From positions 186,001 through 250,000 of the forward strand of contig JAGYIQ010000004.1 in the NCBI GenBank assembly GCA_018402565.1: 64,000 nucleotides of DNA, written 5' to 3'. The notes beneath the pieces are model-generated. The model had not been told where the DNA came from, did not search any database, and saw nothing but the letters and a program-made list of their open reading frames with translations. Origin of the DNA: Pirellulaceae bacterium (GTDB taxonomy: Bacteria > Planctomycetota > Planctomycetia > Pirellulales > Pirellulaceae). Shown here in pieces: positions 12,354 to 36,868 of this stretch. The translations under genes were made by a program, and so were the position numbers. The first letter of the stretch is position 1. The number at the start of each line of letters is the position of its first letter.

Positions 12354-12519
12354 TACGTCTCCGGTTGTATCCTGGACTTAATTTCGTTCGTGGTCTGCTC
12401 ATTAGTTGGTTGCTTCAGCAGTCTTATTATTGCGGCCCATTCAGGGTTGTGCATCGCACAATCCGCCATTTGTGATTGGCGGAACGACTGAGTTCAGTGG
12501 TGAGGACAATAAGAAAGAG
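12354..12519. other. Upstream region of the copper ATPase
   Basis: Short intergenic stretch holding the ATPase upstream region. No gene or clear copper-responsive operator was seen. Confidence 0.3.
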
Positions 12520-12721: not shown

Positions 12722-12949
12722 ATGAAGAAAACACTGATCAAGCATGGCAACAGCCTAGCTTTGGTGATTGACAAACCGATTCTTGAAATGCTCCAGATCA
12801 CCGCCGAGACAGATCGTGAGATCAGTACGAACGGTGACCGATTGCTGGTCACACCGTGTCGAACAAAGAACCAACAGTGAAGATTGGACCAGAGTCTGCA
12901 AAAGATCAACGGCCGCTTTGAATCCGACCTTAGGAAGCTTGTGGAATAG
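12722..12949 (+). pseudogene. MazE/SpoVT-AbrB-type antitoxin with in-frame TGA
   Basis: The ATG at 12722 follows GGAGG and encodes MKKTLIKHGNSLALVIDKPI, a typical AbrB/MazE swapped-hairpin DNA-binding domain. A TGA at 12878-12880 stops it after 52 residues. The same frame then continues with DQSLQKINGRFESDLRKLVE before TAG at 12947-12949, the C-terminal helix expected of this antitoxin family. A single nonsense change therefore truncates it. No toxin gene follows: a tandem repeat array begins 9 bp later. It is an orphan, decayed antitoxin, unless the TGA is read through. Confidence 0.7.
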
Positions 12950-12957
12950 ATGGCGGT

Positions 12958-14535
12958 CAGCACATCACCTGCCGCTGCCCGCCGGAACGAGTACGCGATG
13001 CGACATGGCCCCACATTTTGAATTTTCAAATCTCCATTACTCATTAATCATTCGGTTTTCGCAGGCCACTCAGTGATCGTCCTGCAGTTTGGCGGAAGCC
13101 AACCGGTAATAAAACGTTGTTTCTATAAATCCCTCAGCTAGCAGTGTGATCGAAAATGGGATCGGGTCGAAAACGGGACACCCAATCAACGCTCCAGGGC
13201 GTTTCAGACCCGTCCCGATAGTTTGCAAATAAGAGTGTGACCCCAGCACATCAGTTGCCGCTGCCGGCCGGAACGAGTACGCGATGCGACATGGACCCGC
13301 ATTTTGAATTTTCAAATCTCCATTACTCATTAATCATTCTCTTTTCGCAAACAAGTCAGTGATCGACGTGCAGTATGGCGGAAGCCAACCGGTAGTTAAA
13401 TGTTGTTTCTATAAATCCCTCAGCTAGCAGTGTGATCAAAAATGGGATCGGGTCGAAAACGGGCACACCCAATCAACGCTCCGGGGTGTTTCAGACCCGT
13501 CCCGATAGTTTGCAAATAAGAGCCTGACCCCAGCACATCAGTTGCCGCTGCCGGTCGGAACGAGTACGCGATGCGACATGGACCCACATTTTGAATTTTC
13601 AAATCTCCATTACTCATTAATCATTTTCTTTCGCAAGCCAGTCAGTGATCGACCTGCAGTTTGGCGGAAGCCAACCGGTAGTAAAACGTTGTTTCTGTAA
13701 ATCCCTCAGCTAGCAGTGTGATCAAAAATGGGATCGGGTCGAAAACGGGCACACCCAATCAACGCTCCAGGGCGTTTCAGACCCGTCCCGATAGTTTGCA
13801 AATAAGAGTGTGACCCCAGCACATCAGTTGCCGCAGCCGGTCGGAACGAGTACGCGATGCGACATGGACCCACATTTTGAATTTTCAAATCTCCATTACT
13901 CATTAATCATTTTCTTTTCGCAAGCCAGTCAGTGATCGACCTGCAGTTTGGCGGAAGCCAACCGGTAGTAAAACGTTGTTTCTGTAAATCCCTCAGCTAG
14001 CAGTGTGAGCAAAAATGGGATCGGGTCGAAAACGGGCACACCCAATCAACGCTCCAGGGCGTTTCAGACCCTTCTCGATAGTTTGCAATTAAGAGTGTGA
14101 CCCCAGCACATCAGTTGCCGCTGCCGGCCGGAACGAGTACGCGATGCGACATGGACCGGCATTTTGAATTTTCCAATCTCCATTACTCATTAATCATTCG
14201 GTTTTCGCAGGCCACTCAGTGATCGTCCTGCAGTTTGGCGGAAGCCAACCGGTAATGAAACGTTGTTTCTGTAAATCCCTCAGCTAGCAGTGTGATCAAA
14301 AATGGGATCGAGTCGAAAACGGGCACACCCAATCAACGCTCCAGGGCGTTTCATACCCGTCCCGATAGTTTGCAAATAAGAGTGTGACCCCAGCACATCA
14401 GTTGCCGCTGCCGGTCGGAACGAGTACGCGATGCGACATGGCCCCACATTTTGAATTTTCAAATCTCCATTACTCATTAATCATTCGGTATTCGCAGGCC
14501 ACTCAGTGATCGACCTGCAGTTTGGCGGAAGCCAT
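12958..14535. repeat. Tandem array of 286-287 bp units, about 5.5 copies
   Basis: The landmark CAGCACATCA recurs at 12958, 13244, 13531, 13817, 14104 and 14391, giving a period of 286-287 bp. Copies differ by few substitutions. Each unit contains CGAGTACGCGATGCGACATG, an AT-rich stretch ending CATTACTCATTAATCATT, and GTCCCGATAGTTTGCAAATA. Minus-strand frames of 65 codons recur in each unit but vary like non-coding DNA. The last copy runs into a relic of the RAYT-associated tail. Confidence 0.9.
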
Positions 14536-14660
14536 CTTCGGCAGATTCTACTGAGCTACTCTCCATAGCAGCGTTTAAAAAAACTCTCGGCGATTTCGAC
14601 AAACCAGTTCGATAAGAATCGCACAGCGCCCCGCTTTCCTTCAACTTCGCCCATGGGGAA
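14533..14660 (+). repeat. Diverged relic of the RAYT-associated tail
   Basis: GCCATCTTCGGCAGATTCTA through AACTTCGCCCATGGGGAAC matches the last ~130 bp of the conserved tail downstream of both RAYT genes (21757-21885 and 28868-28995), with substitutions and small indels. No transposase precedes it, so it is a non-autonomous or decayed copy. Confidence 0.7.
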
Positions 14661-14880
14661 CTTCCCGGGACACCCCGTCCTCCTTGTGCGGATCCTTGTG
14701 GGGACACACAATCAGGTCTCACCGTCTTTGGACACCGTCCTTGGGGACACACAATCAAAAAGGGATGCCCCCGAGATATGGCACCCGTTCGTGTGTATCC
14801 CCCGCGATTGTCCCCTTTCGTGTGCGTCCCCGAGTGCTTGGCACCCGTTCGTTTGTGTCCCCCAAGCGGTCTCAACGAAC
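14660..14880. repeat. GGGGACACAC palindrome array A
   Basis: Contains repeated CTTGGGGACACACAATC and CGTTCGTGTGTATCCCCC blocks, the same units as in arrays B-E. The segment 14738-14812 forms one imperfect palindrome around AATCAAAAAGGGATGCCCCC. Confidence 0.75.
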
Positions 14881-17639: not shown

Positions 17640-17915
17640 TGGCACGTCCCTGGGGACACACGGCACGTCCCTGGGGGACACTCAACATTCCCGCGGCACG
17701 TCCCTGGGGACACACAACATTCCCGGGTCCCTGGGGACACACACCTTCCCTGGGCCCTGGGGACACACAACATTCCGCGGCACGTCCCAAAGGTCCTTGG
17801 GGACACACAATCAGGGGACACCGTCCTTAGACACCGTCCTCGTCCTTGGGGACACACAATCAAAAAGGCCCCCCCCCGAGACATGGCACCGATTCGTGTG
17901 TGTCCCCGAGTGCTA
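17640..17915. repeat. GGGGACACAC palindrome array B
   Basis: Repeats of GTCCCTGGGGACACACAACA and its variants occur about ten times in 200 bp, followed by a unit with CTTGGGGACACACAATCAAA and CGATTCGTGTGTGTCCCCGA. There is no unique spacer of constant length, so it is not a CRISPR array. 17501-17639 holds nothing recognisable. Confidence 0.8.
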
Positions 17916-17990
17916 TCTAGCGAGCCTCGCGCTCAATCTGTTTTTGGTGAAGGTAGGGGACTTCGCGGTCAACCACCGAAAACCGGTTGC

Positions 17991-18408: not shown

Positions 18409-18659
18409 GACGGCACATAACCCGGCGGTCGAGATGGTGTCAGGTCCCTGCGAAAATCGCTGAATTTAGGGCTTTTGGGATACTCAGGGGCTATAGATAT
18501 CATGCAGAGGGGCATCTTACGAAGCCTATTCCGAGCAATTCGACAAATTCGATCGTTTCGTCTGTTGCGACTATGGCCTTTGTTTCGATAATAGTCTACT
18601 GTTTACTGGAGGAGATCGATGGTCACGGAAGCGACCCATTGACCACAAAGGAGATTGAA

Positions 18660-19106
18660 ATGGCAGTTCTCGACGAGACTTTTGTGCCATCCGAAGTAGA
18701 CACCGAGACGGCAAAGGCATTTAGCCGTACTCTAGCTCGCCAGATTGCTCCGGAGTCGCGTGTAACCATCCAACGCGAAGGTGACGGCGAAGAAATTGAG
18801 ATTCCACGTACAGTGTTCAACGTGCTGATGAAGGTTCTATCGGTAATGTCGGAAGGCAAACCGTTCACGTTGATACCGATGGATGAAGAGCTAACGACTC
18901 AGCAAGCCGCAGACATCTTAAACGTTTCGAGGCCGTACCTGAATAAAGTCCTCGACCTGGGTGAAATTCCCCATCGTAAAGTGGGACGGAACCGGCGAAT
19001 CAAATTCTGTGATTTGCTTGAGTACAAAAAACAACAGGAACGAAGGAGCAAAGACGGGCTTCAAGAATTGGCGGACCAGGCACAAGACCTGAATATGGGG
19101 TATTGA
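18660..19106 (+). CDS. HTH (excisionase-type) antitoxin of a PIN toxin pair
   Basis: The start is the ATG at 18660, preceded by AAGGAG; about 148 residues. The N-terminal part (SEVDTETAKAFSRTLARQI) is followed by a MerR/excisionase-like helix-turn-helix at ~80-130 (LTTQQAADILNVSRPYLNKV, GEIPHRKVGRNRRIKFCDLL). Such proteins are the usual antitoxins of PIN_3-type toxins. The stop lies 3 bp before the toxin start, so both are co-translated. It should bind the toxin and repress the operon. Confidence 0.8.
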   Translation: MAVLDETFVPSEVDTETAKAFSRTLARQIAPESRVTIQREGDGEEIEIPRTVFNVLMKVLSVMSEGKPFTLIPMDEELTTQQAADILNVSRPYLNKVLDLGEIPHRKVGRNRRIKFCDLLEYKKQQERRSKDGLQELADQAQDLNMGY

Positions 19107-19109
19107 ACC

Positions 19110-19679
19110 TTGTCTAGTTTTACGGCTGTGCTTGATGCGTGCGTCCTCTATCCAGCGCCACTTCGCGACCTTCTGTTGAGCTTGGCAGCAGCAGGTCTCT
19201 ACCGGGCGAAATGGTCACAGCAAATTCATGACGAATGGACTCGCAATCTACTTGAAAAACGGCCTGATCTTACAATGGAGCAATTGCAGGCTACGTGTGT
19301 GAAAATGAACGTTGCCGTGGTCGATAGCCTCGTGATTGGCTACGAGGATTTGATCGTGTCGCTTCACCTGCCTGATCCAGACGATCGCCATGTCCTAGCA
19401 GTAGCGATTCGCTCCGATGCCGATGCGATCATCACCTTCAACCAGCGCGATTTTGACGACGCGGAATTAGCAAAGTACGACATTTATACCGAGCACCCCG
19501 ATGAGTTCGTCTCGAACATGATCACGCTTTACACCCCGCGTGTAATTTCCGCTTTACGCGAAATGCGTGGAAGGCTGCGAAACCCACCCAAAACAGTCGA
19601 CGATTTCCTAAAGACCCTGCATCAACAAGGTTTGCCACAGACAGTGAAACGATTGTCTGAATTTTCAGAATCCCTGTGA
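19110..19679 (+). CDS. PIN-domain toxin (putative ribonuclease)
   Basis: A 189-residue PIN-domain protein starting with TTG at 19110, 3 bp after the antitoxin stop. Conserved acidic positions of the PIN fold can be seen: LDACVLYP (first Asp), HDEWTRNL (Glu), and LPDPDDRHVLAVAIRSDADA followed by ITFNQRDF (last Asps). These residues bind Mg2+ for RNA cleavage in the family. It belongs to the PIN_3-type toxins paired with excisionase-like antitoxins. All key residues seem present, so the pair may be active. Confidence 0.82.
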   Translation: MSSFTAVLDACVLYPAPLRDLLLSLAAAGLYRAKWSQQIHDEWTRNLLEKRPDLTMEQLQATCVKMNVAVVDSLVIGYEDLIVSLHLPDPDDRHVLAVAIRSDADAIITFNQRDFDDAELAKYDIYTEHPDEFVSNMITLYTPRVISALREMRGRLRNPPKTVDDFLKTLHQQGLPQTVKRLSEFSESL

Positions 19680-19904: not shown

Positions 19905-20278
19905 ATTTCGTCCCCGTCCCTGGAATTTCGTCCCTGGGGACACACACCGTCCCTGGGGACACACAACATTCCCGGGAGGGGCACACGTCCCTGGGGACAC
20001 ACAACATACCCTGCCTGTCCGTCCCTGAAGGAGCGTCCCGGAGACACACCGTCCCTGGGGACACACAACATTCCCTGCCCGTCGTGAGCGTCCCTGGTGA
20101 CGTCCATCCCGTTGAGAATCCCTGGCACACCGTCCTTGGGGACGGAGCGTCCCTGGGGACACACAACGTTCCCGGGAAGGGGATCCCTGGGGACACTCAA
20201 CATTCCCTGTCCCTCGCGGGGCGTCCCTGGTGTCCCTGGGGAGGGAAATGCCCCTGGTCCCTGGGGACACGCACGGAT
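19905..20278. repeat. GGGGACACAC palindrome array C
   Basis: More than ten copies of GTCCCTGGGGACACACAACA-type units, mixed with CCCGGGA(G/A)GGG connectors. It ends where the conserved 5' flank of RAYT copy 1 begins. Confidence 0.8.
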
Positions 20279-20413
20279 CTCCCGCCAGAAAAAATCTAAA
20301 GATTCTTACTAGGGTGTGACCTGATGTGTCACAACGGTGCGGAAAATACCTCTTAGGCAGCCAATTGGCTCAGAAATATCTTTGATCGTTTTTTTGTGAA
20401 GTGGAGGTGCAAG

Positions 20414-21505
20414 ATGGCCAGAATGACACGCGCGGACGTCTATTGTCCGCAAGAAGTGGCGACCGTACACGTGATGAACCGCACCGTCCGGCGGTGCTTC
20501 CTCATGGGCGACGATCCCGTGACTGGCAAGAATTACGATCATCGCAAAGAATGGATGGAAACCGAGCTCCAGAATCTCGCGCTTTATTTTTCCATAGATC
20601 TGCTCTGTTTTGCAGTTCTATCGAATCACTTCCACTTGATCCTGCGGTCTCGGCCAGACGTGGTCAAAACCTGGGATGATGCGGAAGTCGCACGTCGCTG
20701 GCTCATGCTCTGTCCCAAACGCCGCGATAGCAACAACCAGCCGGCAGAGCCCACGCAAAAGGAGTTAGACGCGATCATCAAGGATTCCGCAAAGTTACAG
20801 CAAATCCGCCTGCGGCTGAGCGATATTTCCTGGTGGATGCGGCTGTTATGCCAGAAAATCGGTCGACGAGCTAATCTGGAAGACGGCGAGACGGGCAAGT
20901 TCTGGCAGGCACGATTCCGAGCCGTTCGGTTGCTCGATGACACTGCGATTCTGTCCTGTTCAGCCTATGTGGACTTGAACGTCATTCGGGCAGCCCTGGC
21001 CGAGACGATCGAAACCAGCGTGTACACCTCGGCCCAGCAACGGGCGTTGGAGTTGCGTGCCCAGGCGGCTGGGCAAACATCGCCCGGTGCCCATCTGTCG
21101 AACGACGTGGACCCTATCTGCAGGCTCAAGCCGATTGCTCGGTCGCTGAGTCCGATCTGCCTGACGGAGGAGGGAAGTGGGACCGGACCGTGTGTGCATA
21201 CGGGTGGGCTACGAGCCAGCGACAAAGGGTTCTTGCCGATGACGACCACCCAGTACTTGGAGCTGCTGGATTGGACTGCGCGGCAACTGCGATCGGACAA
21301 ACGGGGCGCCACGCCCGCGACGGCAGCTCCGCTGTTCGAGCGATTGGGGATCGACGTCGAGGTCTGGTGCGAGTTGACCAAAAACTTTGGCGACCTATTC
21401 AGTGCGGTAGCCGGCAAGCCCACCGTGATCGACGCGACACGCGGCCGCAAAAGCGGCCAGCGGTACAACGTCCCCGCCAAGACGCGACAGTTGATGCCTA
21501 ACTGA
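20414..21505 (+). CDS. REP-associated tyrosine transposase (RAYT/Y1), copy 1
   Basis: The ATG at 20414 follows GGAGG; about 363 residues. NHFHLIL (His72-Phe-His74) is the HUH metal-binding motif of Y1 transposases. GKFWQARFRAVRLLDD and AYVDLNVIRA match the conserved C-terminal core of RAYT proteins, where the nucleophile Tyr is expected. A C-terminal extension of ~150 residues goes beyond the usual RAYT length. Such enzymes cut and move palindromic REP sequences as single strands; the neighbouring GGGGACACAC palindromes are the obvious substrate candidates. The first half is nearly identical to copy 2, the second half differs at many codons. Confidence 0.85.
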   Translation: MARMTRADVYCPQEVATVHVMNRTVRRCFLMGDDPVTGKNYDHRKEWMETELQNLALYFSIDLLCFAVLSNHFHLILRSRPDVVKTWDDAEVARRWLMLCPKRRDSNNQPAEPTQKELDAIIKDSAKLQQIRLRLSDISWWMRLLCQKIGRRANLEDGETGKFWQARFRAVRLLDDTAILSCSAYVDLNVIRAALAETIETSVYTSAQQRALELRAQAAGQTSPGAHLSNDVDPICRLKPIARSLSPICLTEEGSGTGPCVHTGGLRASDKGFLPMTTTQYLELLDWTARQLRSDKRGATPATAAPLFERLGIDVEVWCELTKNFGDLFSAVAGKPTVIDATRGRKSGQRYNVPAKTRQLMPN

Positions 21506-21527
21506 TCTGGCGAAAACCAGCGCTCAG

Positions 21528-21898
21528 GCACCTAGCCAATCATCCCGCTGCAGCCAAATCTTCAGCGCGGCCCCGGGACCGTTCTGAACTGCCATAGGCA
21601 CACCGTACCTTCCTGCGGCCCGCAGTTTCCACCCGAGGCGACCGAACCACCTTTTCTCGGCAATCATTGCTGCATTAACGCAGCCTTAGGTTGTCCAGCC
21701 ATGTCTCTCAATCGCCGACGCTAGGTTAGCGATTGGCTATCTTCTAGCATGGTCGGCCATCTTCGGCAGATTCTACTGAGCTTCTCCTCATAGCAGCAAT
21801 TGCCAAAACTTTTCGGCGATTTCTCCCAACCAGGTCGATAAGAATCGCACAGCCCCCCCGCTTGCCTTTAACTTCGCCCATGGGGAACGTCACTGGTC
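21528..21898 (+). ncRNA. Conserved non-coding tail of RAYT copy 1 (candidate structured RNA or transposon end)
   Basis: From CCAATCATCCCGCTGCAGCC (21536) to CCCATGGGGAACGTC (~21892) the sequence is identical to the tail of copy 2 except for one homopolymer base. It contains hairpin-forming segments such as CAATCGC...TAGCGATTG (~21707-21733). It has no convincing reading frame. It could be a transposon end recognised by the RAYT, a structured RNA, or simply the product of recent gene conversion. Confidence 0.45.
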
Positions 21899-21899
21899 A

Positions 21900-22480
21900 C
21901 ACCGTCCTTGGGGACACACAATCAAAAAGGGATGCCCCCGAGACATGGCACCCGTTCGTGTGTGTCCCCAAGCGATTGCGCCCCAAGCGATTGCGTGTGT
22001 GTCCCCGAGTGTCCCCGAGTGCTCCCCCCAAGCGATTGCGTGTGTCTCCCCCGAGTGCTTCTCCCTGCTTCTCCCAGTGTCCTCGTGTGTGTCCCCCGAG
22101 TGTGTCCCCCGAGTGCTTCTCCCCCGGTTCGTGTGTGTCCCCGAGTGAGTGTGAGTGAGTGAGTGTGAGTGTGTCCCCCCTGGTTCGTGTGTGTCCCCGA
22201 GTGCTTTTGTGTGTCCCCGAGTGCTTTCCTGTGTCCCTGAGTGCTTTCCCAAGCGATTGCGGGAGTGCTTCCTCGTTCGTGTGTGTCCCCGAGTGCTATC
22301 CCCTGTGAACGTCTTTGGTGAACGTCTTTGGGGACACACAATCAAAAAGGAACACCAACGAGATATGGCAATCGTTCGTGTCTGTCCCCGAGTGCTCCCC
22401 CTGTGTGTCCCCGAGTGCTTCCCCTCCCCGAGTGCTTCTCCCGAGTGCTTTGCCCTGTGTGTCCCCGAGTGCTTTGGATT
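21900..22480. repeat. GGGGACACAC palindrome array D
   Basis: The first unit is a palindrome with 13-nt arms CTTGGGGACACAC (21907-21919) and GTGTGTCCCCAAG (21960-21972) around AATCAAAAAGGGATGCCCCC. It then degenerates into about 25 half-units GTGTGTCCCCGAGTG(CTT) with AAGCGATTGCG connectors. A second full palindrome-like unit begins near 22327. Confidence 0.85.
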
Positions 22481-22653
22481 CATGATTCCGGCTCTATTGA
22501 TTGCCAAGAGCTGCTTGTACGGATCCACGTTAGCGCTGCTCATTGTTTGTTGCAAAAAGAAGCAGCGAACCCCTTACCCCCCTGAAATCGGCAACCGTGT
22601 GGAAGGCAACGGCAAATCGAGCTGAATTGACACGACCCTGCTGCCAGGGGATA

Positions 22654-23292
22654 ATGACCCGAGAAAGGACCGCCCTCAACGTGCATGAAACCTCGCTCAG
22701 TCTTCTAGAAAGCCTCCGCCAATCCCCAGAAAACGAGGGGTGGAATCGGTTGGCGGATCTTTACACGCCTTTGATTCGGGCGTGGTTGCGGCGATACGAC
22801 GTCCAAGACAGCGACGCGAGCGACCTCGTTCAAGAAGTTTTGCTGGCCGTATCCAAAGATCTCGGCAAGTTTGAGCATCGTGGACAGCCGGGCGCTTTTC
22901 GTGGATGGCTGAAGGCGATTCTGATCAATCGGTTACGGAAATTCTGGCGGGCACGGAACCGTCGCCCACAGGCACGGGGCGACTCGGATATCGATGCCAG
23001 ATTGGCACAGTTGGTCGACCCGGCCAGCGATATAAGCCAGACCTGGGATCGGGAGCACGACCAATATGTCCTTCGACAGCTGATGGCCCTCGCCGAACCT
23101 CAGTTCGAGCCGAAGACTTGGAAGGCGTTCTGTCGCGTATCTTTGGAGGGCGCGAAACCCGATGTCGTAGCTCAGGAAATGGGAATTTCTCTGAACGCTG
23201 TTTGTCTCGCTAAGTCTCGTGTCACTCGGAGGTTACGTCAAGAGTCAGCAGGCTTGATCGAGTCGTCATCAAGTTTTTTCCCAAAGAGCTGA
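22654..23292 (+). CDS. ECF-type sigma factor paired with Ser/Thr kinase
   Basis: About 212 residues from the ATG at 22654 (AGGGG just upstream). Region 2 is clear (WNRLADLYTPLIRAWLRRYD, SDASDLVQEVLLAVSKDLGK, GAFRGWLKAILINRLRKFWR); region 4 follows (WKAFCRVSLEGAKPDVVAQE, MGISLNAVCLAKSRVTRRL). A kinase gene with a possible anti-sigma N-terminus follows after 125 bp. ECF sigma factors linked to Ser/Thr kinases are a known planctomycete arrangement. The longer upstream frame runs into array D and is not coding. Confidence 0.85.
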   Translation: MTRERTALNVHETSLSLLESLRQSPENEGWNRLADLYTPLIRAWLRRYDVQDSDASDLVQEVLLAVSKDLGKFEHRGQPGAFRGWLKAILINRLRKFWRARNRRPQARGDSDIDARLAQLVDPASDISQTWDREHDQYVLRQLMALAEPQFEPKTWKAFCRVSLEGAKPDVVAQEMGISLNAVCLAKSRVTRRLRQESAGLIESSSSFFPKS

Positions 23293-23417
23293 CAAGATCT
23301 GTTGGGAGTGGGTCTTCATGACTGGAAGCGAGTCCTCCTGTTGGACGTTAACCGGTTACCAGAAACGCTTACCAAGTCAGAGTTACCAACACCAAACAGA
23401 CATTCCGAGAGTGATCC

Positions 23418-26400
23418 ATGGAGAAACTTGCCGCACACCCGAGCCGAGAGGAATTAAGTGCTTACAGCCTTGGGCAATTGTCGGAGGAACGAGCGGTCGC
23501 TATTGATAGTCATATCAGCGAGTGCGAGCCTTGCTGCGAGACCATCGTCAAGCTGTCATCGGAGGACACATTCGCAGGTCTGTTGCAGGAAGCCGGCCGA
23601 TTGCCGACGGATCAAACGGCTGTTCACGACATTGTGACGCCAATATCGCGATCTGCGCCTAACGACATTCCGCCACCGCTGAGCGAACATCCTCGCTATG
23701 AGGTGCTTGGTCTGATCGGCAAAGGCGGCATGGGCGATGTGTATCGAGCCCGTCACCGGAAGATGGAAAGAACAGTGGCGTTGAAGGTCATCAACCGCGG
23801 ACTGGTTCAGAAAGCGGAAGCCATCGATCGTTTCCATCGTGAAGTCAAAGCTGCCGCACAACTTTCTCATCCCAACATCGTGACTTCGCATGACGCCGAT
23901 CATGCCGGTGACTTCCACTTCATGGTGATGGAATTCATCGAGGGTGTTGATTTGTCTCAGACGGTCAAGAAACGAGGCGCATTGCCAGTCGCCGAAGCGT
24001 GCGATTACATTAGGCAGGCAGCGATGGGACTGCAGCACGCACATGAACGTGGCATGGTACATCGCGATATCAAACCACACAACATGATGGTCACGCAGGA
24101 TCGAGTCGTCAAGATCCTCGACTTCGGCCTTGCGTCGCTGGCACCGCAGGCCACGCCAGGCGAACCAATCAGCGAAGACGCAAACGGAAATCTGACAGTC
24201 GCCGGAGCCATCATGGGAACTCCGGATTTCATTTCGCCAGAGCAGGCTCGAGATGCTCGCCAAGTTGATGGTCGCAGTGACATCTACAGTCTTGGCATGA
24301 CACTCTACTACTTGCTGGCCGGGCGTGCACCGTTTGGGGAAGGATCGGCAATTGAGAAACTCAAGAAACAAGCCGAAGCAGAACCGGAACCACTGAGCCG
24401 ATTTCGGGAAGACGTCCCGGCGGAACTTGAAAACATCATCCACCGCATGACGGCCAAGAAACCGGCCGAGCGGTTTCAATCACCGCAAGAAGTCGCCGAT
24501 GCGTTGCAGCCGTTTGCGAGCGAACTGCCCATAGTTTCCAAGCCGCAGCCTGCCCCGCAGAAAACTCGAGCTGCCGGCGGTTCGATCGTCAAGTGGATTA
24601 GTGCAGCTATCCTGTTTGCGATGTTGGGGGCGGGCGGGCTGTCGCTGTTGAATCTCAGCGATCCGGAAACGGATTACAAGAGCCTGGACAAATTCTTGGC
24701 GACCGGCGTTAGCGACGAACCGGCAGGCGACATTGTCAGGCGACTACTTCGCACAGAAGAAGGGCGACAGTTTCTGCGAAAACTGGACGCACGGCATCCC
24801 ACGCTGGCCTATACCGAGGGCCAGTTTGCTCGAGGCTATACCTCCGTGGCTGCATTCGCTTACGAAAACCGCATTACTGGGGTTGCTCAGCCTGAGCTGC
24901 TCGTCATCGGATGGGGGCCGACAGTGTCCGGCATGAAGACCTGCAACGTTGTGGAGTCGTTCACGTTGGAGTCGATCGACTTTGACAATGCGCCGGACAA
25001 TACATGTTTGGCGACGCTGCAATTCAAGACTCCTCAGAATGAAAAACGGGCTCTTGGTCTGAAAGTTCAGTCTTTATACGAAGTAGAAATCCCAATTCAG
25101 ACTCTGATCGAGGGGAGATTGAGCATGTCGGATGAGTTTAAGAAGGGCAAATTTGTCGGGAACGCTCCCAAGGATTCAAGCGAGCCGACCGACCCACAAA
25201 TCGTCTCTGATTCCAATCTCAATCACCAGACCGACATGCCGGGCGGCCCGGGCGAGCAAGGCTTGGATTCGGTGTTTCAGCAGAAAGAGTCCACGACAAA
25301 AGCACAAGCAACAGAGCATGTAGGTGAAGTTCAGGCAACACGGCCCTTCAGTTTCGACCTGTCTCTTGTCCCTGCGAATGCTCAACAAGTTATTGGAGCT
25401 CGGCCGGGAAATATCCTGCGTGATCCGCAACTGGCAAAGCTACGTGAGAACGCGCCACCCTTGGCAGGTTTTACTTCCTTGTTTGTCAATGAGAATGTTG
25501 CCGAAGTACTGGCCATCACATTGTCAAAACCCAGTCGCATGTCGAATCCACGAGTCATCGTTCTCACCGTCGAACAAGGAGATGCGATGGAAGAGGTTGA
25601 TCGAGCCATCGGCATCCAAAAGTTGGGGCGTGGCGACGCGGAATCGGAGTACAAGAGTACCGGTTACGTAAGTCGAGAGGGACGCCTTCTGGTCCGGCGG
25701 ATTGACCGCCAAACGGTCGTTCTGGGCACACGCAAGGAACTCGATGGGCATAAGTTGGCCATGAACGTTCCCATGCCCAATGAGCTTCGAGAGGTCTCCA
25801 AAGGGATGCAGGACTGCGAGGCTTTCCTGATCGCCAATCCACACGCGATTTTGGACTTCGGGCCTGAAAAAGCGAGTGCCAACGCGGGGGCAATCAATGA
25901 GATTCTGAAACAACTTCGCTTTGTTCACGGAGAAGCAAAGTTCGTGACAGCGACCGTCTCGCTTGGAGAGAAGCCTCGGCTTCAGTTCTCAGTTCGTGCC
26001 AAGGCCCAGGAGCGAAACCATGAGGTCGCGATGGCTGTGTCTGAGATTCGCGACCAGGCGATGACTCTGATTCGAGGAAATCTGAACCAGCTCTCAGATG
26101 AACTGTTCTTTAAGGATCAGGAATCCGCCGCCGCTGCGACGGCTTCCTTGTTGCTCAGTCGAGTCACAGAGCCAACGCCGCAAGATACGCTGTTGGATGT
26201 CCCACTGATGCCGGCGATGAGCCCAGTGGTCAAGATGCTTGGGGAGCAGTTTGATGCCAAGAAGCTTCAGCGAGATCATGTTCGATTCAGCATGCAAAAT
26301 ATCAGCCTAGGCTTCTTTCAATTCGAGTCGCAGCACGGATACTTGCCGTCGGCTTCCACAAAGATTCCCGGTGCCGCACATCCCGTTTCGTGGCGGGTCG

Positions 26401-26894
26401 CCATCCTGCCGTATGTCGGCCAAGAGAAACTCTACGCCCAGTACAAGCTTGACGAGCCGTGGGACAGCGAGCACAACAAGTCGCTGCTTGCGAACATGCC
26501 GGAGCTTTACCGTCACCCCAGCTCGTGGCGACAAAGTACGGAGACCAATGTTGTCTCATTCGTAGGTGCCGACACCGCTGTTGGAACCGGCGACGAACCG
26601 GTGCGACTCGAAGATTTCCAGGACGATCTCGGGCTAACCATCCTTGTCGCCGAATCCGCCACTGGCATTCCATGGACGAAACCCGAAGATGTCCCATTCA
26701 CTGCTGGCGAGCCGCTTCCACCGATTGGCGGACTTGGGGTAGAAGGGTGGAACGCTGTGTTCGCAGACGGCAGTGTGCAATTCGTGCCACGGAACACTTC
26801 GACCGACGTGATCGCTGCCATGCTGACTCGCAACGGTGGCGAATCGGTGCAGGTCGAAGACGGCAAGTTTTCGCTTCGGAAGGTAGGCGAGTAA
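23418..26894 (+). CDS. Transmembrane Ser/Thr protein kinase fused to a DUF1559-like domain
   Basis: An 1158-residue protein. Residues 1-60 resemble an anti-sigma zinc finger (HISECEPCCETI). The Hanks-type kinase domain spans ~94-355: Gly loop GKGGMGDVYRA (101-111), VALKVI lysine, HRDIKPHN catalytic loop, DFGLA metal site and GTPDFISPEQ. A transmembrane helix follows at ~390-412. The long outer part ends in a DUF1559-type segment (FSMQNISLGFFQFESQHGYL, WRVAILPYVGQEKLYAQYKL, NAVFADGSVQF). DUF1559 normally occurs with an N-terminal pilin-like methylation motif, absent here. It probably modulates the adjacent sigma factor in response to an external signal; that is inference. Confidence 0.88.
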   Translation: MEKLAAHPSREELSAYSLGQLSEERAVAIDSHISECEPCCETIVKLSSEDTFAGLLQEAGRLPTDQTAVHDIVTPISRSAPNDIPPPLSEHPRYEVLGLIGKGGMGDVYRARHRKMERTVALKVINRGLVQKAEAIDRFHREVKAAAQLSHPNIVTSHDADHAGDFHFMVMEFIEGVDLSQTVKKRGALPVAEACDYIRQAAMGLQHAHERGMVHRDIKPHNMMVTQDRVVKILDFGLASLAPQATPGEPISEDANGNLTVAGAIMGTPDFISPEQARDARQVDGRSDIYSLGMTLYYLLAGRAPFGEGSAIEKLKKQAEAEPEPLSRFREDVPAELENIIHRMTAKKPAERFQSPQEVADALQPFASELPIVSKPQPAPQKTRAAGGSIVKWISAAILFAMLGAGGLSLLNLSDPETDYKSLDKFLATGVSDEPAGDIVRRLLRTEEGRQFLRKLDARHPTLAYTEGQFARGYTSVAAFAYENRITGVAQPELLVIGWGPTVSGMKTCNVVESFTLESIDFDNAPDNTCLATLQFKTPQNEKRALGLKVQSLYEVEIPIQTLIEGRLSMSDEFKKGKFVGNAPKDSSEPTDPQIVSDSNLNHQTDMPGGPGEQGLDSVFQQKESTTKAQATEHVGEVQATRPFSFDLSLVPANAQQVIGARPGNILRDPQLAKLRENAPPLAGFTSLFVNENVAEVLAITLSKPSRMSNPRVIVLTVEQGDAMEEVDRAIGIQKLGRGDAESEYKSTGYVSREGRLLVRRIDRQTVVLGTRKELDGHKLAMNVPMPNELREVSKGMQDCEAFLIANPHAILDFGPEKASANAGAINEILKQLRFVHGEAKFVTATVSLGEKPRLQFSVRAKAQERNHEVAMAVSEIRDQAMTLIRGNLNQLSDELFFKDQESAAAATASLLLSRVTEPTPQDTLLDVPLMPAMSPVVKMLGEQFDAKKLQRDHVRFSMQNISLGFFQFESQHGYLPSASTKIPGAAHPVSWRVAILPYVGQEKLYAQYKLDEPWDSEHNKSLLANMPELYRHPSSWRQSTETNVVSFVGADTAVGTGDEPVRLEDFQDDLGLTILVAESATGIPWTKPEDVPFTAGEPLPPIGGLGVEGWNAVFADGSVQFVPRNTSTDVIAAMLTRNGGESVQVEDGKFSLRKVGE

Positions 26895-27329
26895 TCTCGT
26901 GAGTGGCATCCCGAAGAGAAAGAGTCAAAAGGCAATCGGGCTCCAGCCGCAAACGACTCGCGCACCGATGACACGCCGGACTCGTCGCTGAATAACGCAG
27001 CCGACGTAGAATCGCTTCCACTGGTGGAAGTGCCGAATGCTGCGCTCGGCGAAGGAATGTCGATGCCTCACGATCAGCCAGGCGAGGTCTCGGAGAATCA
27101 TACCGATCCGATCTCTGTGATTCGCAAGGCCGTTCTTCCGCAAGACTTTGACGCCGAGGGTGCCGGTTGGCAGCGATTCCGCGTTGCCACCAAAGGAGCC
27201 AAAGGCGGGACGGCTTCAGGCGTGCTGGAGAATTTCAGACCATTGCTGGCCAAACTGCCCCAATCCAAACTCTCGCTGCAAAAATTGGCTGCTAAGGTGG
27301 AGGAGGGCCCCCCGGGGACACACATCTAA
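26895..27329 (+). pseudogene. Open frame in phase with the kinase, cut by a repeat
   Basis: After the kinase TAA (26892-26894) the same frame is open for 143 codons: REWHPEEKESKGNRAPAAND, then HDQPGEVSENHTDPISVIRK and FDAEGAGWQRFRVATKGAKG. Composition is protein-like. The last codons (EGPPGTHI) are already repeat DNA, so a real reading frame seems to have been truncated there. It could be a lost C-terminal extension of the kinase, a separate gene (GTG 27024 or ATG 27057 start), or chance. No family is recognised. Confidence 0.4.
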
Positions 27330-27360
27330 TCGCGGCCCCCCGCGGGGACACGGGGACCTG
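27303..27360. repeat. Short GGGGACACAC remnant F
   Basis: CCCCGGGGACACACATCTAA and CGCGGGGACACGGGGACC are two units of the array family, just before RAYT copy 2; copy 1 has the long array C in the equivalent position. Confidence 0.6.
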
Positions 27361-27525
27361 ACCAGTGCAGAAAACTGGCGGCCCCAGATCTCCCGCCAGA
27401 AAAAAATCTGAAGATTCTCACTAGGGTGTGACCTGATGTGTCACAACGATGCGGAAAATACCTCTTAGGCAGCCAATTGGCTCAGAAATATCTTTGATCG
27501 TTTTTTTGTGAAGTGGAGGTGCAAG

Positions 27526-28617
27526 ATGGCCAGAATGACACGCGCGGACGTCTATTGTCCGCAAGAAGTGGCGACCGTACACGTGATGAACCGCACCGTC
27601 CGGCGGTGCTTCCTCATGGGCGACGATCCCGTGACTGGCAAGAATTACGATCATCGCAAAGAATGGATGGAAACCGAGCTCCAGAATCTCGCGGCTTTAT
27701 TTTCCATAGATCTGCTCTGTTTTGCAGTTCTATCGAATCACTTCCACTTGATCCTGCGGTCTCGGCCAGACGTGGTCAAAACCTGGGATGACGCGGAGGT
27801 CGCCCGTCGCTGGCTCATGCTCTGTCCCAAACGCCGCGATAGCAACAACCAGCCGGCAGAGCCCACGCAAAAGGAGTTAGACGCGATCATCAAGGATTCC
27901 GCAAAGTTACAGCAAATCCGCCTGCGGCTGAGCGATATTTCCTGGTGGATGCGGCTACTGTGCCAGAAAATCGGTCGACGAGCCAATCTGGAAGACGGCG
28001 AGACGGGCAAGTTCTGGCAGGCACGATTCCGAGCCGTTCGGTTGCTCGATGACACTGCGATTCTGTCCTGTACAGCCTACGTGGACTTGAACGTGATTCG
28101 AGCAGGTCTAGCCGAGACGATCGAAACCAGCGTGTACACCTCGGCCCAGCAACGGGCGTTGGAGTTGCGCGCCCAGGCGACGGGGCAAACATCGAATGGT
28201 GCCCAGCCGGCGATCGACGCAGATCCGATTCAGAGGCTCAAGCCGATTGCTCGGTCGCTGAGTCCGATCTGCCTGACGGAGGAGGCCAGTGGGACCGGAC
28301 CGTGCGTACATACGGGTGGGCTACGAGCCAGCGACAAAGGGTTTTTGCCGATGACGACCGCCCAGTACTTGGAGCTGCTGGATTGGACCGCGCGGCAACT
28401 GCGATCAGACAAACGTGGTGCCACGCCCGCGACGACGGCTCCGCTGTTCGAGCGATTGGGGATCGACGCCGAGGTTTGGTGCGAGTTGACCAAAAACTTT
28501 GGCGAGCTATTCAGTGCGGTGGCCGGCAAGCCAACGGTGATCGACGCGACGCGGGGCCGCAATAGCGGTCGGCGTTACAACGTTCCTGCCAGGACGCGGC
28601 AGTTGATGCCTAACTGA
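27526..28617 (+). CDS. REP-associated tyrosine transposase (RAYT/Y1), copy 2
   Basis: About 363 residues from the ATG at 27526 behind GGAGG, with the same NHFHLIL HUH motif and AYVDLNVIRA core as copy 1. Relative to copy 1 there is a pair of compensating one-base indels around residues 55-58 (LAALFSID here, LALYFSID there). The segment after the core (TGQTSNGAQPAIDADPIQR) differs strongly from copy 1. Frame and motifs are intact, so either copy could be active. Confidence 0.85.
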   Translation: MARMTRADVYCPQEVATVHVMNRTVRRCFLMGDDPVTGKNYDHRKEWMETELQNLAALFSIDLLCFAVLSNHFHLILRSRPDVVKTWDDAEVARRWLMLCPKRRDSNNQPAEPTQKELDAIIKDSAKLQQIRLRLSDISWWMRLLCQKIGRRANLEDGETGKFWQARFRAVRLLDDTAILSCTAYVDLNVIRAGLAETIETSVYTSAQQRALELRAQATGQTSNGAQPAIDADPIQRLKPIARSLSPICLTEEASGTGPCVHTGGLRASDKGFLPMTTAQYLELLDWTARQLRSDKRGATPATTAPLFERLGIDAEVWCELTKNFGELFSAVAGKPTVIDATRGRNSGRRYNVPARTRQLMPN

Positions 28618-28639
28618 TCTGAATAAAATCGTCGCTTAG

Positions 28640-29015
28640 GCACATAGCCAATCATCCCGCTGCAGCCAAATCTTCAGCGCGGCCCCGGGACCGTTCTGAA
28701 CTGCCATAGGCACACCGTACCTTCCTGCGGCCCGCAGTTTCCACCCGAGGCGACCGAACCACCTTTTCTCGGCAATCATTGCTGCATTAACGCAGCCTTA
28801 GGTTGTCCAGCCATGTCTCTCAATCGCCGACGCTAGGTTAGCGATTGGCTATCTTCTAGCATGGTCGGCCATCTTCGGCAGATTCTACTGAGCTTCTCCT
28901 CATAGCAGCAATTGCCAAAACTTTTCGGCGATTTCTCCCAACCAGGTCGATAAGAATCGCACAGCCCCCCGCTTGCCTTTAACTTCGCCCATGGGGAACG
29001 TCCCTGGTCACACCG
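28640..29015 (+). ncRNA. Conserved non-coding tail of RAYT copy 2 (candidate structured RNA or transposon end)
   Basis: Matches the tail of copy 1 base for base from 28648 to ~29000, except one C in a C-run and one substitution at the very end. It is separated from the transposase stop by ~30 bp that differ between copies. See the entry at 21528 for structure and alternatives. Confidence 0.45.
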
Positions 29016-29017
29016 TC

Positions 29018-29605
29018 CTTGGGGACCTTGGGGACACACAATCAAAAAGGGACGCCCCCGAGATATGGTACCCGTTCGTGTGTGTCCCCAAGCGATTGCG
29101 CACAAACAAAAAGGGACGCCCCCGAGATATGGCACCCGTTCGGGCACCCGTTCGTGTGTGTCCCCCAAGCACCCCCACAAACAAAAAGGGACGCCCCCGA
29201 GATATGGCACCCGTTCGTGTGTGTCCCCCAAGCACCCCCAAGCAATTGATTGTCCCCCGTTCGTGTGGTCCCCCGGTCGTGTGTGTCCCCGAGTGAGAGT
29301 GAGTGTGCCCCCGAGTGTGCCCCCGAGTGTGCCCCGTGTGGGTCCCCCGAGTGTGTCCCCCCCCGTGTGTGTCCCCGAGTGTGTCCCCGAGTGTGTCCCC
29401 GGGTGCTTCCCCGTGTGTGTCCCCGAGTGTCGTCCCCGTGTGTGTCCCCGAGTGAGTGTGCCCGTGTGTCCCCGAGTGTGTGTGCCCCCGTGTGTGTCCC
29501 CGAGTGTGTCCCGGGTGAGTGTATCCCCAGGTGCTTCTCCCCACAGGTGCTTCCCCGAGTGCGAGTGTGTCCCCGGGTGCTTCCCCGGGTGCTTCCCCGC
29601 TGAGG
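29018..29605. repeat. GGGGACACAC palindrome array E
   Basis: Starts with a full palindrome (arms 29027-29039 and 29080-29092), followed by two more copies of the AAAAAGGGACGCCCCCGAGA segment and then about 20 half-units such as GTGTGTCCCCGAGTGTG. All the long reading frames here are read-through of the repeat. Confidence 0.85.
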
Positions 29606-29716: not shown

Positions 29717-29922
29717 TGCAATAACCAGAGGGTCAAACACTGTTTGATGCCCTTACTTCAGTTGAAATTCGGGCTGGCTCTTGGGTGACCTCGGGGTTAT
29801 GGAACACACACAGCGTGAGCGTATATATCTTTAAAAATGCCTTAAAGGCGATTCATCTTCCCTTAGATCGGGATCGCTGTTTCTCGCGGTAATCAGGGAT
29901 TTGACTTTCCTCCAATCGCGTG

Positions 29923-29966
29923 GTACAAATTACCTCCCAACTTGCTTTTCAGGAGGTGTTTTGTAC
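29923..29966 (+). promoter_or_regulatory. Inverted repeat covering the ribosome binding site of the AbiEi-type gene
   Basis: Arms GTACAAATTACCTCC (29923-29937) and GGAGGTGTTTTGTAC (29952-29966) pair at 13 of 15 positions with a 14-nt loop. The right arm is the Shine-Dalgarno of the GTG at 29968. AbiEi antitoxins are known to repress their operon through inverted repeats, so it may be a DNA operator; as RNA the hairpin would hide the ribosome site. Confidence 0.6.
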
Positions 29967-29967
29967 C

Positions 29968-30585
29968 GTGATTCATTCCAATTCAACGAGTGCCGTGGAA
30001 CGAGCCGCCAAGGTGTTTCGTCAACATGGCGGAATCATGCGAATGGCCGAGGTTATTCGAGCTGGTATTACTCGAAATACCCTTTACGCGATGCGCGATG
30101 CTGGTCAAGTCGAGCAACTTGCCCGGGGGCTCTACCGACTTGCCGAAATGCCCTCTCTCAGTCAATCCGATCTGGTGACCGTCGCGGTGAAAATTCCGCA
30201 GGCTGTCATCTACCTGATATCGGCACTTGCCTTCCATGAACTGACCACACAAATTCCCCATGAGGTGTGGATCGCGATACCACGCAACGGCGAGCCGCCA
30301 AGGCTGAACTACCCACCCGTGAGAGTCTCGCGACTCAATATGTCGGCCTATGGTACTGGGATCGAGACGCATCACTCCGATGGTGTGGCGATTCGTGTTT
30401 ACTCGCGCGAAAAGAGTCTAGTGGATTGTTTCAGTCGGCGCAATCAAGTGGGGCTCGATGTCGCCCTTGAAGCGCTCAAGTCCTACCTGTCGCAAGGCAA
30501 CGTGAAAGTTGATCTCCTGATGGAATACGCGAAAGCGCTGAGGGTCGCCAAAACCATGCGGCCTTATCTGGAGGCACTGCTATGA
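29968..30585 (+). CDS. AbiEi-family antitoxin (type IV toxin-antitoxin)
   Basis: About 205 residues from a GTG at 29968, just after AGGAGGT. The N-terminal winged helix (VFRQHGGIMRMAEVIRAGIT, RNTLYAMRDAGQVEQLARGL) and the following domain (AVIYLISALAFHELTTQIPH, EVWIAIPRNG, VDCFSRRNQVGLDVALEAL) match AbiEi antitoxins. The stop overlaps an ATG as ATGA (30582-30585), the usual coupling to the AbiEii nucleotidyltransferase toxin, but what follows is not a recognisable AbiEii. It therefore looks like an antitoxin left without its toxin. Confidence 0.8.
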   Translation: MIHSNSTSAVERAAKVFRQHGGIMRMAEVIRAGITRNTLYAMRDAGQVEQLARGLYRLAEMPSLSQSDLVTVAVKIPQAVIYLISALAFHELTTQIPHEVWIAIPRNGEPPRLNYPPVRVSRLNMSAYGTGIETHHSDGVAIRVYSREKSLVDCFSRRNQVGLDVALEALKSYLSQGNVKVDLLMEYAKALRVAKTMRPYLEALL

Positions 30586-34754: not shown

Positions 34755-34828
<74 letters not shown>

Positions 34829-35501: not shown

Positions 35502-36640
35502 CCTCAGCGAATGGTGCATTGCGCAAGTCGGATTGTGCTTGCCGCTGGACCGGGCGATTCTCCAGGGGCTGTCCTTGAAAAGGATCGTAATTGTTGGCTC
35601 GACTTGCTCCATGGCACCCTACGACCGACGCCGAACGGTATCTAGCACCAAACCAGCAGAGGGCGGCGGGGTGCATTACGCCGGACGTGTATCTAGGGGA
35701 ATGGTGCATTGCGCAAGTCGGATTGTGCTTGCCGCTGGACCGGGCGATTCTCCAGGGGCTGTTCTTGAAAAGGATCGTAATTGTTGGCTCGACTTGCTCC
35801 ATGGCACCCTACGACCGACGCCGAACGGTATCTAGCTCCAAACCAGCAGAGGGCGGCGGGGGTGCATTACGCCGGACGTGATCTAGGGGAATGGTGCATT
35901 GCGCAAGTCGGATTGTGCTTGCCGCTGGACCGGGCGATTCTCCAGGGGCTGTCCTTGAAAAGGATCGTCCCTGTTGGCTCGACTTGCTCCATGGCACCCT
36001 ACGACCGACGCCGTACGGTATCTAGCACCAAACCAGCAGAGGGCGGCGGGGTGCATTACGCTGGACGCGTATCTAGGGGAATGGTGCATTGCGCAAGTCG
36101 GATTGTGCTTGCCGCTGGACCGGGCGATTCTCCAGGGGCTGTCCTTGAAAAGGATCGTAATTGTTGGCTCGACTTGCTCCATGGCACCCTACGACCGACG
36201 CCGAACGGTATCTAGCTCCAAACCAGCAGAGGGCGGCGGGGTGCATTACGCTGGACGCGATCTAGGGGAATGGTGCATTGCGCAAGTCGGATTGTGCTTG
36301 CCGCTGGACCGGGCGATTCTCCAGGGGCTGTCCTTGAAAAGGATCGTCCCTGTTGGCTCGACTTGCTCCATGGCACCCTACGACCGACGCCGAACGGTAT
36401 CTAGCTCCAAACCAGCAGAGGGCGGCGGGGTGCATTACGCTGGACGCGATCTAGGGGAATGGTGCATTGCGCAAGTCGGATTGTGCTTGCCGCTGGACCG
36501 GGCGATTCTCCAGGGGCTGTCCTTGAAAAGGATCGTCCCTGTTGGCTCGACTTGCTCCATGGCACCCTACGACCGACGCCGTACGGTATCTAGCTCCAAA
36601 CCAGCAGAGGGCGGCGGGGGTGCATTACGCTGGACGCGAT
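35502..36640. repeat. Tandem array of 189-190 bp units, six copies
   Basis: ATGGTGCATTGCGCAAGTCG recurs at 35511, 35701, 35891, 36081, 36270 and 36459. Copies differ mainly at a few positions (for example GTAATTGTTGG or GTCCCTGTTGG). The segment ACCAAACCAGCAGAGGGCGG plus GTGCATTACG repeats separately two more times at 36640-36720. Long frames through it are repeat artefacts. Confidence 0.9.
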
Positions 36641-36727
36641 CTAGCACCAAACCAGCAGAGGGCGGCGGGGGTGCATTACGCCATACGCTATTTAGCACCA
36701 AACCAGCAGAGGGCGGCGGGGCGACAT

Positions 36728-36868
36728 CGCGCTCTACGCTCTTAGCTCTACGCACTTCGCTCTACGCTCTACGCTCTACGCTCTACGCCCTACGCTCTAC
36801 GCCCTACGCACTTCGCTCTACGCCTCTACGCACTTCGCACTTCGCTCTACGCTCTACGCCGTGTAGCC
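36728..36868. repeat. CTCTACG heptamer microsatellite
   Basis: About 18 units of CTCTACG with CCCTACG and CACTTCG variants. Confidence 0.9.

Follow-up and report, generated by a model that had tools for sequence, protein, structure and literature searches.

We analysed a 64,000-nucleotide (nt) stretch of DNA from a Pirellulaceae bacterium (assembly GCA_018402565.1, contig JAGYIQ010000004.1, positions 186,001 to 250,000; hereafter the window), in which two transposase open reading frames (ORFs), copy 1 and copy 2, are each followed by a non-coding tail. According to the reading that we favour, with a probability of roughly 72%, these two ORFs and a third one on contig C191 of the same genome are copies of one mobile element with a RAYT-superfamily transposase similar to TnpA-Y1 subclass 2.3; the tail forms the right part of this element and owes its identity to recent duplication or conversion, and arrays of repeats grow at the element's ends. 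Most likely, then, the tail is an end part of the element that was recently homogenised between neighbouring copies and not a conserved RNA. The first-pass annotation of this DNA, which had drawn attention to the tail, was partly confirmed in its observation, which is real but in part misdescribed, and its interpretation is partly supported.

Tail identity and recombination among the copies

We aligned copies 1 and 2 over their full length (coordinates in Table 1). The left non-coding part differs at 3 of 125 nt and the first half of the ORF at 11 of 546 nt, versus 53 of 546 nt in the second half. Similar first and diverged second halves had been described before, although the earlier count of about 45 differences in 650 nt was only a by-eye guess. 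The tails had further been reported as identical after both stop codons, bar one homopolymer base. This holds for 347 nt (21534-21880, in copy 2 from 28646), in which one C of a homopolymer is the single difference, but the 28 nt directly after the stop codon (21506-21533) carry 8 differences and are the densest region compared. That is, the left border of the identity lies inside non-coding DNA and not at the stop codon. Beyond 21880, one substitution at 21892 is followed by a 9-nt insertion in copy 2, and the similarity extends past the tail through a mini-element of about 67 nt to end within repeat arrays. The longest identical stretch between the two copies measures 320 nt, a length reached in none of 20,000 uniform placements of 77 differences; the match of the tails is real and far from chance.

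Both transposase copies of the first-pass annotation are real, but they are not the only ones. The host genome (7.18 Mb in 223 contigs) encodes a third full-length copy, copy 3 (C191:20153-21241), whose protein is 97% identical to that of copy 1 (94% for copy 2). Over its first 70 nt, the tail of copy 3 is 97% identical to that of copy 1 (copy 2 matches copy 1 at 89% there), and after 75 nt 144 of 295 positions (49%) are identical to copy 1, with short alike patches. A three-way alignment revealed long blocks in which the odd one out switches between the copies. Among the 116 variable sites, 23 single out copy 1, 52 copy 2 and 41 copy 3, and they form a strong mosaic of 34 runs (versus 74.6 expected by permutation; 0 of 20,000 permutations were as low). 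Duplication together with gene conversion can therefore account for the tail identity, in line with the simple alternative that the first-pass annotation had offered. Judged from the sequences, recombination among the copies would explain the patchwork, and recent duplication or conversion the identical stretches. A tract comprising the second half of the ORF and the 28 nt that follow its stop codon would have been exchanged with other copies, while the tail would have been homogenised or duplicated between neighbours.

A non-coding segment conserved better than the adjacent coding sequence had been taken as the mark of a functional end or a structured RNA. We compared the first 200 nt after the stop codon with the ORF in nine genomes with several copies, and this pattern was not general: the tail was less conserved than the ORF in seven of the nine groups, for example in Neorhodopirellula pilleata (92.6% versus 97%) and in F1-20-MAGs055 (49% versus 79-89%). 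The R. solitaria group (three pairs) could not be interpreted, as its ORFs are broken. In the nearest relative (locus L016, 73% amino acid identity), one of three relatives compared by eye, the tail was not recognisably alignable.

Two explanations of the tail by selection were weighed against recombination. Near-perfect identity over 347 nt and short hairpins seen by eye would be expected of a structured RNA, be it a small RNA or a guide-like one, that works with the transposase and is kept constant by selection, but we regard this explanation as very improbable. Single-strand folds of the tail gave z values of 0.08 as DNA and of -0.98 (plus strand) and -1.00 (minus strand) as RNA, the Rfam search returned no match for the tail, and a scan of 20200-22100 found no sigma-70-like promoter, which is a weak test for planctomycetes. 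The search of other genomes that the first-pass annotation had proposed as a check yielded no tail match at E 0.001 in any of 58 genomes, among which two belong to the same genus, and matches only within the tail's own genome, whereas the transposase protein was matched in 33 of these 58 (34 of 59 including the own genome). Covarying helices, the other proposed check, were likewise not found: among nine N. pilleata tails, two-sided changes were seen at 0 of 60 predicted pairs, a comparison of low power at 92% identity. Finally, the tail of copy 3 has diverged beyond its first 75 nt. With folds, Rfam, relatives and covariation all negative, we rejected the RNA reading, and the lead is removed as doubtful. 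Alternatively, the transposase might recognise the tail as a long cis-acting site, which would then be kept constant by this role rather than by conversion. It does belong to the mobile unit described below, and the N. pilleata end contains a GTAGCT/AGCTAC inverted pair and, in most copies, TGTCCCC; nonetheless, the divergent tail of copy 3 despite its 97% identical protein, together with the low tail conservation in most multi-copy groups, makes such a site quite unlikely, and the constraint could cover at most the terminal tens of nt.

The element ends and their oriented arrays

In N. pilleata, eight near-identical copies (94-98% mutually identical) are located in unrelated flanks and have sharp ends that enclose the tail: the left one, CNTGGGGACA, is at about -102 relative to the ATG, and the right one, TGTCCCCARG, at about +275 beyond the end of the match. 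Six further places hold a ninth full-length copy (L127), an internally deleted copy (L131), a partial copy (L130) and three stretches cut by contig ends (L126, L128 and L129). Scanning the genome for the left end with up to two mismatches yielded 17 sites (9 forward, 8 reverse), versus none for the reversed control. Because near-identical units with the same ends are spread in this genome, the whole unit, tail included, appears to be mobile. The earlier proposal that the tail is a functional end therefore stands in the plain sense that it is the right-hand part of an apparent mobile unit, and falls where it invoked a structured RNA. At L126, a few extra nt separate a truncated copy from the copy after it, and the eight other copies show the continuation of the truncated one; this looks like an insertion into a copy. 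At L064, a second right end lies 135 nt past the first, which suggests a tandem copy of the element's last part.

More unusual than the matching tail are the arrays of end repeats, which face outward on both sides of the element; our literature search, judged on titles and the starts of abstracts, found no treatment of such oriented arrays. We counted GGGGACA and TGTCCCC within 800 nt on either side of 50 transposase genes, namely copies 1-3 and 47 of 66 loci (19 partial or contig-end matches were excluded, and the flanks are short at some of the 47). The ratio of GGGGACA to TGTCCCC was 90:8 upstream and 8:86 downstream, against an expectation of 7.3 for both favoured classes combined, and inside the ORFs (53,490 nt) the motifs occurred 0 times and once. 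Counted by genome, 17 of 22 favoured the array orientation upstream (1 opposed, 4 tied) and 12 downstream (1 opposed, 9 tied). The reversed motif ACAGGGG gave 4:3 upstream and 1:2 downstream. At least two repeats were present on the left at 19 loci and on the right at 18 loci.

Relatives at 31-36% identity were found in 14 plasmid records, 11 of them from the Alteromonadales Pseudoalteromonas, Catenovulum, Saccharobesus or Shewanella. In eight of the 14 Gammaproteobacterial plasmid relatives, GACACCC-type ends were distributed 6:0 upstream and 0:5 downstream, and other motifs were mixed (upstream and downstream, GGACA 4:3 and 4:12, GACAC 8:6 and 4:16, GACAG 9:4 and 4:10); the array claim is therefore not extended to them. 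Repeated right ends with other terminal motifs were seen by eye at four loci of Gammaproteobacterial relatives (L121, L123, L124 and L125).

Within an array, the outer flanks of the units resemble each other more than those of other loci. Over the outer 9 nt, agreement among left units was 0.51 at the same locus, 0.32 between loci of the same genome and 0.28 between genomes, and the corresponding values for right units were 0.47, 0.38 and 0.27; when labels were shuffled within genomes, agreement as high as that observed arose in 0 of 1,000 trials, for left and right units alike. Over the inner 9 nt, there was little or no locus effect (left 0.58 versus 0.56, right 0.64 versus 0.56). On the left, agreement within a locus holds for about 7 nt before it falls, and on the right for about 8 nt; farther out the values are somewhat noisy. 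The units are uneven in length. In the host genome, the outer flanks of the left arrays are locus-specific as well (0.50 at the same locus versus 0.24 at others). This locus specificity of the outer flanks within genomes suggests that most arrays grew in place, after insertion.

As the source of the arrays, we infer HUH nicking at the ends followed by partial re-copying and rejoining. The transposase would nick one strand at the terminal GGGGACA/TGTCCCC repeats; if nicking now and then aborts and is followed by short copying and rejoining, or if slippage occurs at these sites, partial copies of outer flank plus end would be added and the arrays could grow. The full proposal, in which each transposase lengthens its own element at the ends by adding outward partial copies of local flank and end, and the resulting self-stuttering terminus sometimes travels with the element, is tentative and in our view rather doubtful. 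A hint of such travel came from N. pilleata, where 10-13 nt beyond the end are common to both members of 3 of 91 copy pairs, all three among the six most closely related pairs. Co-mobility of these tags, for which only the count of long shared tags speaks, was not supported by a Mantel test: the three nearest blocks gave r values of 0.05, 0.09 and 0.12 (p 0.59, 0.69 and 0.94); of the five blocks in the test, that of nt 21-36 had an r of -0.21 (p 0.038).

Without involvement of the transposase, the arrays could also be ordinary minisatellites whose GC-rich repeats expand through unequal crossing-over or replication slippage. Tandem units that carry local flank are typical of slippage, but the unit holds the element's own end motif, points outward on both sides in many genomes, and combines uneven length with a short outer tag. 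We consider slippage a serious possibility, if somewhat short of an even chance. A further model, which has been proposed for REPs, is that solo end repeats are mobilised in trans again and again and enter existing repeats; we consider it unlikely. There are 68 GGGGACACACA sites in the host genome (2 for the reversed control), and 31 of them lie away from the three copies (12 clustered on contig C112 and, near 14.7 and 17.7 kb of the window, 8 more), which favours this model; yet 37, by hand count, lie beside the three copies, all 17 left-end sites of N. pilleata are attached to or beside element sequence, and units of one locus resemble each other more closely in their outer flanks.

Besides ordinary slippage, the strongest rival to transposase-driven growth, several observations weigh against a single mobile element whose ends give rise to arrays. 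The structure model of the transposase (mean predicted local distance difference test score 48.5) is too poor to confirm an HUH fold. The terminal GGGGACA sits elsewhere in copies 1-3 than in N. pilleata: the nearest one precedes the ATG by 151 nt in copy 1, 182 nt in copy 2 and 344 nt in copy 3, without a shared position, and the sequence common to copies 2 and 3 starts with a CTGGCGG/CCGCCAG inverted repeat, so that the ends of the window copies can be placed only approximately. The junction at L126 is only about 215 nt from a contig end, where misassembly or a truncated neighbour is possible. Right arrays of the host genome are hardly locus-specific in their outer flanks (0.37 versus 0.34). 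Three of four shuffled motifs lean weakly, though far less, in the same direction as GGGGACA on one or both sides (GGACAGG 10:5 upstream and 0:5 downstream, GACAGGG 10:2 and 1:6, GGCAGGA 2:0 and 2:11), while the fourth shows no lean (0, 2, 2, 3). In SJ586 (one pair), finally, the tail is as conserved as the ORF or more so (92.2% with 34 gap positions versus 91.9/86.4%). The oriented and locus-tagged end arrays offer tangible material for experiments on how repeat families are seeded by RAYT-type enzymes.

Further features of the window

The left non-coding part of copy 1, which copy 2 shares, holds a TGTGAC/GTCACA inverted pair (read by eye), and GTGAC/GTCAC is also present at L016. Related copies of the mini-element start at about 14739, 17844, 22326 and 29026. 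The partial third copy that had been noted in the window at 14533-14660 is genuine: it spans 14531-14681 and is 85% identical to tail positions 251-403. On contig C112 of the host genome, the twelve GGGGACACACA sites (542374-543908) share one orientation and are near-regularly spaced (98, 129 and other distances); the transposase had no match on this contig, although a RAYT-family match lies about 0.55 Mb from the cluster.

The transposase cluster is flanked by an HTH_17 and then a PIN_3 gene (18573-19679) on one side and by an AbiEi_4 antitoxin-type gene (29920-30585) on the other. Six tandem units of about 287 nt (repeat family D1) occupy 12884-14616, the last one overlapping the start of the tail fragment, and six of about 190 nt (D2) occupy 35509-36756. 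A dispersed repeat of 76-116 nt occurs at 12516, 29629, 33015 and 34628, where its last copy adjoins a tRNA gene (34755-34828).

Table 1. Coordinates of the element copies, arrays and mini-elements in the window
Feature	Position	Strand	Basis or remarks
Right-end fragment without transposase (3' part of tail, 85%) plus mini-element	14531..14820	+	sequence comparison
Left-type array joined directly to mini-element, without transposase	17641..17925	+	sequence
Left array, copy 1	19920..20270	+	(C)GTCC[CT]TGGGGACACACAACATT units, uneven length, all in one orientation
Left non-coding part of copy 1, common to copy 2	20289..20413	+	alignment
Transposase ORF, copy 1	20414..21505	+	363 amino acids; NHFH (HUH motif) at 71-74; YVDLN with Y185
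Right non-coding tail, copy 1	21506..21904	+	identical to copy 2 over 21534-21880 except one C
Mini-element of about 67 nt, inverted ends CTTGGGGACACAC...GTGTGTCCCCAAG	21906..21972	.	repeat family D3
Right array, copy 1	21958..22480	-	GTGTGTCCCCGAGTGC units, uneven length, opposite to left array; includes a mini-element at about 22326
Left array, copy 2	27310..27345	+	two GGGGACA units
Left non-coding part of copy 2, common to copy 1	27401..27525	+	alignment
Transposase ORF, copy 2	27526..28617	+	363 amino acids
Right non-coding tail, copy 2	28618..29015	+	alignment
Mini-element adjoining tail, copy 2	about 29026..29092	.	repeat family D3
Right array, copy 2	29078..29600	-	GTGTGTCCCC units

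Comparison with known transposase systems

By its sequence, the element appears to be an HUH/Y1 transposase element, with TnpA-Y1 subclass 2.3 and TIRtrons as the known systems nearest to it. In profile searches, NCBIfam NF047646 (REP_Tyr_transpos) matched with 27.8 and 32.5 bits, below its cut-off of 80, and Y1_Tnp (PF01797) was matched at E <=0.1 by 15 of 21 family members (best 3.8e-5), copy 1 not among them. Copies 1 and 2 had no Pfam match at 0.001, and a sequence search of the PDB returned five matches at E about 0.9, none of them a transposase. With RAYTs and REPtrons, the element shares the transposase superfamily, as the NF047646 match below cut-off indicates, but the repeats found here are of the GGGGACA type; no search aimed at GTAG REPs was made. 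IS200/IS605 elements likewise have a Y1 HUH transposase, yet the protein described here is more than twice as long (363 amino acids versus a median of 152, Table 1 of PMC6006769) and inverted end repeats are present. This and the following comparisons refer to PMC6006769 and PMC3733652 in the parts consulted.

TIRtrons are described in PMC3733652 as RAYT-like genes bounded by inverted repeats with a GGGGWSAS motif, the repeats being single, dimeric or grouped. The element resembles them in combining a Y1 transposase gene with inverted repeats, and GGGGACAC of the window arrays fits GGGGWSAS. The N. pilleata ends CNTGGGGACA...TGTCCCCARG likewise form inverted repeats of the TIRtron kind, with the left end GGGGACAT deviating in its last letter. 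Outward arrays with locus-specific flanks, or sharp-ended sets of near-identical full-length copies, do not occur in the consulted text of PMC3733652, figures aside. According to PMC6006769, the 26 TIRYT examples of PMC3733652 fall in subclasses 2.1 (20), 2.2 (4) and 2.5 (2).

Several features are shared with TnpA-Y1 subclass 2.3. The protein is long (median of the subclass 325 amino acids, Table 1 of PMC6006769), and the tyrosine motif, YVDLNPIR in the consensus of 21 sequences and YVDLNV in copy 1, fits the YVDLNP type. T205 and S206 are invariant in the 21 sequences and followed by 157 residues in copy 1, consistent with a TS motif and a long C-terminal domain, and the distance from H74 to Y185 amounts to 111 positions (subclass median 110). 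In contrast, the HUH motif is NHFH in 16 of the 21 sequences and NHYH, as in subclass 2.3, in none, and the W motif is WQ in 15 of 21 including copy 1 (both by eye) instead of WE. PMC6006769 further characterises the subclass by two insertions, of 10 and 55 amino acids, that separate secondary-structure elements of the core. The host also differs, being a planctomycete, whereas PMC6006769 places the subclass mainly in Chromatiales and Alteromonadales, the latter being the order of most plasmid records with a relative, and describes it as not flanked by REP-like secondary structures. Against this description, our results indicate that Y1 transposases of the subclass 2.3 type form whole mobile units with inverted ends.

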